Source: Tautonia sociabilis (GTDB lineage: Bacteria; Planctomycetota; Planctomycetia; Isosphaerales; Isosphaeraceae). From it: DNA of 64,000 nt. The position numbers and the translations under genes were made by a program. Below the pieces are notes generated by a model that was given only the letters and a program-made list of their open reading frames with translations, was not told the DNA's origin and ran no database searches. Location of the stretch: positions 1 to 64,000 of the forward strand of contig NZ_RYZH01000040.1 of NCBI RefSeq assembly GCF_003977685.1, written 5' to 3'. How positions within the stretch are numbered: the first letter of the stretch is position 1; every line of letters starts with the position of its first letter. Positions 52,152 through 54,246 of the stretch are shown here, one piece after another.

Positions 52152-52700
52152 TTACTTGCCGAACGCCTTGCCGGCCTTGCGGCGGACCTGCTCGCCCTCG
52201 TAGCGGATGCCCTTGCCCTTGTAGGGCTCGGGGGGGCGGACGCGGCGGATGCGGGCGGCGAATTCGCCGACGGCCTGCTTGTCGGCGCCGGTGATCTGGA
52301 TGTGGGTGGCGTCAGGGACGGTGACGGTCACACCCTCGGGGGCTTGCATCAGGATCTGGTTGGCGAAGCCGACCTGGAGGTTGACGGCATTGGCTCCCTT
52401 GAGCTGGGCCTGATAGCCGACGCCAACGATCTCCAGGCGCTTGGTGTACCCCTCGGTGACCCCCTTGACCATGTTGGCGATGAGGGTACGGGTCAGGCCA
52501 TGCAGGGCCTTGTTCATGCGCTCGTCGTCGGGGCGCTCGACGCGGATCTCTTTGGCGACGGCGTCGTGAGTGACGCGCATCTCCTCGCGGAAGGAGAAGG
52601 AGAGCTTCCCCTTGGGGCCCTCGACCTGGATGGTGGAGCCGTCCAGGGAGATCTTCACGCTGTCGGGCACGGGGATCGGCAGGCGACCGATACGGGACAT
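52152..52700 (-). CDS. rplF: 50S ribosomal protein L6
   Basis: The 182-residue product starts MSRIGRLPIPVPDSVKISLD and contains LIANMVKGVTEGYTKRLEIVG and the C-terminal RRVRPPEPYKGKGIRYEGEQ. It lies 46 nt after the L5-S8 reading frame. Confidence 0.97.
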   Translation of the reverse strand: MSRIGRLPIPVPDSVKISLDGSTIQVEGPKGKLSFSFREEMRVTHDAVAKEIRVERPDDERMNKALHGLTRTLIANMVKGVTEGYTKRLEIVGVGYQAQLKGANAVNLQVGFANQILMQAPEGVTVTVPDATHIQITGADKQAVGEFAARIRRVRPPEPYKGKGIRYEGEQVRRKAGKAFGK

Positions 52701-52746: not shown

Positions 52747-53139
52747 TCAGTAGACCAGCGCCAGCACCTCGCCGCCGACCTTCTCGGCGCGGGCGCGGCG
52801 GTCGCTGAGGATCCCCTTCGGGGTGCTGAGGATATGGATCCCCATGCCGCCCTGGACCGGCTTCAGCTCGCGATAGCCACGATAGATGCGGCGCCCCGGC
52901 TTGCTGACGCGGTCGATCCGGGTGATGACCTTCTCGCCGTTGGGGCCGTACTTCAGGTTGACCCGGAGGGTGCGGGCCGGGACGGTGTCGATCACCTCGA
53001 AGTCCCAGATGTAGCCCTCGTCCTTGAGGGCCTGGGCGATGCCGGCCTTCTCGTTGGAGAGCGGCATGTCGACGATCGGCTTCTCGATCCGCACGGCGTT
53101 GCGGATGCGGGTGAGCATGTCGGCGATCGGGTCGGTCAT
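52747..53139 (-). CDS. rpsH: 30S ribosomal protein S8 portion (alternative internal start)
   Basis: If translated separately, S8 would start at ATG 53139 (or the preceding ATG 53142), giving 130 residues, the same length as in E. coli. It shows [14 protein letters not shown] at the N-terminus and [21 protein letters not shown] near the C-terminus. It is listed separately because the junction upstream is a homopolymer and the fusion is unproven. Confidence 0.55.
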
Positions 53140-53715
53140 CATGGCGGGGGGGCCGGCGACGCCGCGCTGCTGGCCAGGCTTGCGGTAGGGCATGCCGAAG
53201 GCTCGGAGCAGCTCTCGGGCCTGGTCGTCGTTGCGGGTGGTGGTGACGATGGTGATGTCCATCCCGAGGGTGTGGGAGATCTTGTCGGCCTCGATCTCGG
53301 GGAAGACGACCTGCTCGGTGAGGCCGAGGGTGTAGTTGCCGTTGCCGTCGAAGCTGTTGGGGTTGACGCCGCGGAAGTCTCGGATGCGAGGCAGAACGAG
53401 GTTGATCAGGCGGTCGAGGAACTCGTACATCCGCATGCCGCGGAGGGTGACCTTGCAGCCGATCTCGTTCCCCTCTCGGAGGCGGAAGCCGGCGATGGAC
53501 TGTTTGGCCTTGGTGATGACCGGCTTCTGGCCGGCAATCCGCCCCATGGTCTCGACGGCGGCCTCGAGGATGGACTTGTCCTGGGTGGCGCGGCCGACGC
53601 CCATGTTCAGGACGATCTTCTCGAGCTTGGGGATCGCCATGACATTGGTGATCCCGTACTTCTCGGCGAGTGCCGGGGCGATGGTCGTGCGGTACTCTTC
53701 AAACAGGCGGGCCAT
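52747..53715 (-). CDS. rplE-rpsH: Ribosomal proteins L5 and S8 in one continuous frame (fusion or frameshift)
   Basis: One open frame of 322 codons encodes a complete L5 (from [20 protein letters not shown] to [11 protein letters not shown], about 178 residues), a 13-residue linker rich in Gly, Gln and Pro, and a complete S8 starting [18 protein letters not shown] and ending EVLALVY. No stop separates them and rpsN is missing. The junction contains seven C in a row on the coding strand (53146-53152). Removing a single C would end L5 at a TGA overlapping the S8 ATG, the usual ATGA coupling. So this may be a true fusion, a slippage-regulated site, or an indel error in the sequence. S8 has no clear ribosome-binding site of its own. 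Confidence 0.85.
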
Positions 53716-53892: not shown

Positions 53893-54246
53893 TCAGCCCC
53901 CGGCCTTAGCTCGGGAGGGCTTGGGGGGGCCGAGGGTGCCGAGGCCGGAGTCGCAGCGCTTGCAATGCCGCTCCTTCTGGCCGTTGTCGAGGATGCGGTA
54001 GCCGACCCGGGCGGGGCCGTTGCAGGTCGGGCAGTAGAGCATGACGTTGGAGGCGTCGATCGGCATCTCCTTGGAGAGCCGGCCGCCCTGGGGATTGCGC
54101 TGACTGGGACGCACGTGCTTGTAGACGAGGTTGACGCCCTCGACGACGATTTTGCCTTTCGCGGGGAGCGTCCGGAGGACCTTGGCTCGGGTCCCCTTGT
54201 CGTCCCCGGTGATGACGACGACTTCGTCGTTGCTTCGGACCTTCAT
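53893..54246 (-). CDS. rplX: 50S ribosomal protein L24
   Basis: The 117-residue product has the KOW start (MKVRSNDEVVVITGDDKGTR) and VNLVYKHVRPSQRNPQGG. The C-terminal extension carries two cysteine pairs, CPTC and CKRC, forming a likely zinc ribbon seen in some bacterial L24 proteins. It precedes rplE by 177 nt. Confidence 0.96.
   Translation of the reverse strand: MKVRSNDEVVVITGDDKGTRAKVLRTLPAKGKIVVEGVNLVYKHVRPSQRNPQGGRLSKEMPIDASNVMLYCPTCNGPARVGYRILDNGQKERHCKRCDSGLGTLGPPKPSRAKAGG

Follow-up and report, generated by a model that had tools for sequence, protein, structure and literature searches.

Introduction

In the bacterial spc operon, rplE (ribosomal protein L5) and rpsH (S8) lie between rplX (L24) and rplF (L6) and are separated by rpsN (S14), in the order rplX-rplE-rpsN-rpsH-rplF. 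L5 belongs to the central protuberance of the large subunit and S8 to the body of the small subunit, far from each other. Several described systems bear on this part of the operon. In Escherichia coli, an S8 repressor site lies at rplE in the spc mRNA and a second S8 site in helix 21 of 16S rRNA, and known S8 sites pair at positions 596 and 644 (PMC4176348). In other bacteria, zinc-less paralogs of S14 are known to have displaced the zinc-binding form (PMC11580457, PMC8866557). Translational coupling occurs at overlapping stop and start codons without a Shine–Dalgarno (SD) sequence (PMC9955659), and tethered subunits have been obtained in an engineered ribosome, Ribo-T (PMC6389949, PMC6718428). 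No report of a fusion of L5 with S8, or of rplE with rpsH, was found in the open-licence PubMed Central literature, the listings of which were partly surveyed; in PMC1175954, the wording L5-S8 refers to concatenated alignments.

Here we describe the rplE-rpsH junction in a stretch of 64,000 nucleotides from the planctomycete Tautonia sociabilis (hereafter the window). The assembly to which it belongs (G000) comprises 6,760,005 bases in 133 contigs and holds one match to S8.

L5 and S8 in a single reading frame

On the minus strand of the window, a single open reading frame of 322 residues (53715..52747) spans L5 and S8 without an intervening stop. Pfam places Ribosomal_L5 at residues 24-80, Ribosomal_L5_C at 84-177 and Ribosomal_S8 at 195-322, all above cut-off, and one frame crosses both complete domains in the deposited record. 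The features of the locus, in the direction of transcription, are as follows.

53893..54246, minus strand: rplX (L24), upstream neighbour, named from its translation
53143..53715, minus strand: rplE (L5), which supplies residues 1-191 of the fused frame with the L5 tail counted in, from Pfam and from the congeners, in which L5 stops after ..QRAG
53153..53164, minus strand: possible trace, CGGCGTCGCCGG, of the left arm, CCGCCTCGCCGA, of the congeners' rpsH leader hairpin, from alignment; in GC-rich DNA it may be due to chance
53146..53152, minus strand: run of seven C at the joint, read directly; one C fewer would bring L5 into the TGATGA frame
53136..53141, minus strand: TGATGA in the +1 frame, overlapping the ATGATG of S8, read directly; the stop that L5 would use with six C
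52747..53142, minus strand: rpsH (S8), residues 192-322 plus the stop, with the start ATGATGACC that relatives also have, from Pfam and relatives
52152..52700, minus strand: rplF (L6), downstream neighbour, named from its translation

The joint reads GGC CCC CCC GCC ATG ATG ACC on the coding strand, and the seven-base run at 53146-53152 (G on the plus strand) leads directly to the S8 start. As recorded, no L5 stop overlaps that start. Removal of one C would change the L5 frame to CCC CCG CCA TGA TGA, with a stop that overlaps the S8 ATGATG. An earlier, sequence-only reading of this DNA had described two complete proteins with no separating stop, a C7 junction on the coding strand and a TGA overlapping the S8 ATG upon deletion of one C, all of which the present analysis bears out. 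It had also proposed a linker of 13 residues; the linker is shorter, because only seven residues, GVAGPPA, are specific to the joint relative to the congeners' ..RKPGQQR-AG-stop. Two genes brought together by random collapse of the intervening DNA should share a frame about one time in three, and the frame relation alone is, on this reasoning, not improbable.

The junction in relatives

In three congeners L5 ends ..QRAG-TGA and is separate from S8, the distance from the L5 stop to the S8 start being 148 nt (G001), 163 nt (G003) and 139 nt (G002, an assembly of 9.4 Mb in 6 contigs); the fused frame is not kept in these relatives. The junction in the window lacks nearly the entire congener-type spacer together with the L5 stop, a loss found only in G000 among the four genomes of the genus. 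All four share the same context at the start of S8, CCCCGCC-ATGATGACC, and L5 ends in GGCGTCGCCGG in the window where the congeners have GGGCCGGCTGA. The sequence-only reading would have been undermined by relatives with separate genes and a junction free of homopolymers. The genes did prove to be separate, but the junction is not homopolymer-free, as the S8 leaders of the congeners also finish with four or five C before GCC-ATGATG.

Beyond the genus, no fused L5-S8 frame was seen in any of the 111 other locus rows holding both genes (113 in all, two of them the window itself; the 111 include places fetched twice). In a survey of the class (297 genomes, 294 with a match), a stop-free match over both proteins occurred only in G000 among the matches listed, which are the best matches, such that a very diverged fusion could be missed. 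Outside the class, the frame survey covered the best 80 of 583 loci.

S14 outside the operon

No rpsN lies between L5 and S8 in the operon of the window. The sequence-only reading was right to call the gene missing there, but its absence is not specific to this junction, since all four genomes of the genus carry S14 elsewhere; rpsN loss as a special trait of the fused junction is ruled out. S14 is found between L5 and S8 in 39 of the 43 family genomes with an S14 match. The four exceptions are the genomes of the window's genus, and all other Isosphaeraceae with S14 (39/39) keep it in this interval. Each genome of the genus has one S14 match, which in G000 lies outside the operon at G000:C64:42767-42925 (L002) and corresponds to a protein of 89 residues, counted from its likely start. 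CxxC pairs are absent from the S14 of G000 and of G002 (L163 likewise lies outside the spc operon and has none), and two such pairs are present in all 11 S14 loci inspected from other genera of the family. From this difference we conclude that the zinc-type rpsN of the operon was replaced in the genus by a zinc-less S14, before and apart from the appearance of the fused joint. The single match per genome speaks for a replacement rather than for a second copy serving under zinc starvation.

Elsewhere in the class, both proteins fall in one close-set match with one stop in G170 and G052, and with two stops in G069 and G050. In G170 (L254), G069 (L255), G050 (L256) and G052, L5 adjoins S8 with stops kept and no room for rpsN; these are apparently separate losses of rpsN from the L5-S8 interval.

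A leader hairpin ahead of rpsH

Most spacers of the family contain a repeated pattern ahead of S8, CCGNCGCG-CCGAC ... GTTACC-CGCGNCGG. Pairing was assessed on 26 of 32 distinct leaders (alignment A3, which leaves out L098, L032, L024, L012, L025 and L052). Dropped before the 32 were L001, L003, L007, L008, L009 and L015, in which no element was seen, and every locus with S8 below 71% identity. Standard pairs account for 94.4% of cells in the hairpin and for 89.3% in shuffles (0/500 as high), six of its pairs vary on both sides (0/500 shuffles reach the covariation score) and slid versions of the structure pair in 28-50% of cells; these figures, which describe a covarying stem, lean in favour of the pattern because it was already known when alignment and structure were picked.

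A covariance model built from the alignment (R1) matches in 37 of 45 family genomes (L004:2113-2196, L005:2127-2211, L006:2111-2188 and 34 further genomes). By coordinates, 36 matches lie directly upstream of S8, and that in G029 overlaps the S8 match only since the latter extends into the leader; two weak second matches occur elsewhere in family genomes. At E up to 0.01 the model has no match anywhere in G000, in G009, in G037-G040 (one genus, although G038, whose locus L022 is in the alignment, visibly retains a version of the pattern), or in G028 and G044, genomes in which S8 itself was not found. Since G009 and G037-G040 also have no match, G000 is not alone in the family in having lost the hairpin, although no other genome of its genus has. 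The best score in the window is 16.5 bits (E 0.067) at 1201-1262, distant from S8. Among 28 loci searched at E up to 0.1, six family loci match and the 22 others, which belong to other groups by identity, do not.

A known Rfam leader was rejected: searches of ten loci returned no family, the single hit, to a human lncRNA region, being below the gathering score. In 16S numbering (reference sequences from G001 and G002), the core of the hairpin has the G597-C643 pair and A642 in 26/26 leaders and U at 641 in 22/26. Positions 596/644 are C/C in 25/26 and C/U in 1/26, unpaired, and the triple 595-(596-644), with 596 and 644 paired, is not formed. The hairpin is a candidate S8 autoregulatory leader; it resembles a ribosomal-protein leader outside the matches of Rfam here, with S8 as its likely ligand. 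We found no report of it in the literature surveyed, mostly listings together with the main text of PMC7247131, which treats twenty ribosomal leaders and there mentions neither rpsH, uS8 nor planctomycetes; this does not prove the element unpublished.

Probable spacer collapse and translation of S8

In the window, the pairing energy between the 25-nt leader of S8 and the 16S tail is -1.7 kcal/mol, the weakest among the leaders compared. The same leader scores -3.0 to -8.6 kcal/mol in 27 relatives (27 of 28 loci returned values, L018 being missing, and some of the better scores stem from stretches off the usual SD spacing), and the leaders of ten other genes in the window score -4.0 to -9.3 kcal/mol. 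Judged by pairing with the 16S tail, no SD-like stretch precedes S8 in the window, and the second gene of the pair has no strong start signal of its own. We reject an SD-led start of S8 within the fused frame as the main route, since the S8 leader is the one that pairs worst with the 16S tail, and S8 therefore seems dependent on ribosomes arriving from L5.

Because the hairpin and the SD-like stretch before S8 are both lost, the collapse of the L5-S8 spacer looks real, and the C run is not the sole change at the junction. With spacer, hairpin and SD-like stretch gone, production of S8 must rely either on coupling to L5 or on fusion with it. The sequence-only reading had named the right set of candidates (fusion, slippage or indel), but it captured the overall situation in part, the loss of spacer and hairpin having escaped it.

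Reliability of C runs in the assembly

Reading frames on both sides of C/G runs were compared across 1.34 Mb of the G000 assembly, runs without clear flanking frames and runs between opposite-strand genes being excluded. The frame is kept at 155 of 157 runs of length seven, at 44 of 46 of length eight (the breaks lie near a gene end in L203 and at a NusG-like gene in L233) and at 10 of 12 of length nine (the breaks lie at the S8-L6 gene boundary of the window and in accC, L228). In the congeners, 7/7 (G001), 5/5 (G003) and 49/52 (G002) runs of length seven keep the frame, two of the three breaks in G002 being near a gene end, and all 30 runs of length eight or more, combined, do so. At length seven the break rate of G000 is not raised relative to the congeners (2/157 versus 3/52, 0/7 and 0/5), and the assembly is not clearly worse than G002. 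As 155/157 runs keep the frame, miscounts of C7 in G000 amount to at most about one in a hundred. Comparison of the window with G001, G003 and G002, which contributed 30, 32 and 31 matching reading frames, respectively, revealed no split gene.

At least one gene elsewhere in the assembly is broken by a C-run indel. The biotin carboxylase gene accC (G000:C115:7600-8929) is split at a C9 run (L228:8313) into two pieces that hold consecutive parts of the same Pfam domains. It is the only accC-type gene of G000, other matches to the model being a 1167-residue frame of a longer carboxylase and two weak ones. The gene is whole and above the model cut-off in all three congeners, and in two of them the position of the break has no long C run. 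accC is expected to be essential; because it is nevertheless broken at a C run, the break points to an error in the record, although a real mutation is possible. For the indel proposed by the sequence-only reading, the evidence is therefore divided: accC speaks in its favour, but the runs of length seven that keep the frame and the intact genes of the window do not.

Both length-seven breaks of G000 are on one stretch, at two G7 runs 1.5 kb apart (L217:13196 and L217:14692, on G000:C92), where they hit an ABC transporter ATPase and a Ser/Thr kinase-like gene; either the genes have decayed or the assembly is of poor quality there. The C8 break at L233:8165 (G000:C130) falls in the N-terminal part of its NusG-like gene. 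The 16S of the assembly is one piece of 291 bases, and the sequencing method used for the strain was not found in the open-licence literature.

Explanations of the fused frame

The account that we favour, and consider probable, combines a stop-start overlap in the cell with a one-base miscount in the record. rpsN would have left the spc operon in a step common to the genus, and the remaining L5-S8 spacer would have been deleted with the rpsH leader hairpin and the SD-like stretch of S8, so that L5 and S8 abut. With six Cs, L5 would end in the cell at the TGA overlapping the S8 ATGATG, and S8 would be coupled to it, being translated behind L5 by termination and reinitiation; the fused frame would presumably stem from over-counting the C run by one base. 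We favour this account because the genes are separate in the congeners and unfused in the 111 other rows, because G000 alone reads through among the matches listed for 297 genomes, because S8 without its own start signal needs ribosomes from L5, because accC is broken at C9 in the same assembly and because the overlap required is one C away. A stop-start overlap is also the expected, ordinary outcome of spacer collapse, and an uncut L5-S8 tie is expected to be harmful. Against a miscount we count the 155/157 C7/G7 runs that keep the frame, the lack of any split gene in the window relative to G001, G003 and G002, and the accC break, which could be a real mutation. A C7 miscount rate of about 1% weighs against an error in the record, yet real fusions are rarer still (0/111). 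The weights that we attach to the several readings are judgements, not computed odds.

That the seven Cs are real, and that L5-S8 is a natural fusion born of the deletion of spacer, hairpin and start signal, with S8 made only via the L5 frame (released by slippage, cut out or left as a subunit tie), is possible but doubtful. One form of this would make the C7 a slippage site, at which ribosomes (+1 on CCC CCC G) or RNA polymerase often drop one C; L5 would then end at TGATGA and S8 restart there, with some fused product made as well. CCC-C runs can promote +1 shifts. At this joint the run immediately precedes the S8 start, a +1 step leads to two stops, S8 lacks an SD-like stretch and other C7 runs in G000 keep the frame. 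We nevertheless hold slippage to be rather unlikely: conservation does not support it, since the run of the congeners is shorter and lies in the leader, not in coding sequence. In the other form, a fusion protein, all S8 would be made as a C-terminal extension of L5 and would afterwards be released by cleavage or remain attached, and then either link the two subunits or leave every large subunit with an S8 dangling from it. This would agree with a record that reads through, a single S8 in the assembly and the missing SD-like stretch; it is decidedly unlikely given that none of the 111 other rows is fused, that no more than seven residues separate S8 from the point where L5 usually ends, although the two proteins sit far apart, and that L5 tails across the family vary and end near the position of the joint anyway. 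Least credible of all is an assembly artefact, in which the assembly passed over a GC-rich spacer with its hairpin and the organism itself keeps the L5 stop, leader and S8: the segment missing relative to the congeners does hold such a hairpin and the assembly is fragmented (133 contigs, a 16S piece of only 291 bases), but the end of L5 is altered too, GGCGTCGCCGG replacing GGGCCGGCTGA, which simple omission of the spacer seen in congeners would not produce, and R1 finds no match in G000 at E up to 0.01.

Significance and comparison with known systems

A real fusion would provide a protein bridge of natural origin, or a joint controlled by slippage, linking components of both ribosomal subunits. 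Even without a real fusion, the locus illustrates an operon spacer decaying stepwise, with S14 out, the hairpin kept in three species and lost in the fourth, and the loss by S8 of its own start signal as a further step. In the literature surveyed, mostly listings, we found no report of an rplE-rpsH junction that lost rpsN, the leader hairpin and the stop in successive steps, and in this respect it appears new.

Compared with the bacterial spc operon, L24, L5, S8 and L6 are in the usual order and strand; the differences are that rpsN is out of the operon throughout the genus and that the L5-S8 spacer is gone in G000 alone of its four genomes. As in zinc-less S14 paralog systems, the S14 of G000 and G002 has no CxxC pairs, but with one S14 match per genome it is a replacement rather than an additional copy. 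The family hairpin shares with the helix 21 S8 site the G-C pair, an invariant A after 641, mostly U641 and two pairs above; it differs in the unpaired C/C or C/U at 596/644 and, from the E. coli spc site, in preceding rpsH instead of lying at rplE, and it is lost from the genome of the window. Coupling at an SD-less stop/start overlap would fit the translation of S8 if the run has six Cs, whereas the deposited record meets no stop. An uncut L5-S8 fusion would tie the subunits as Ribo-T does, but Ribo-T is designed and joined through its rRNAs, whereas the L5-S8 tie would be natural and made of protein.
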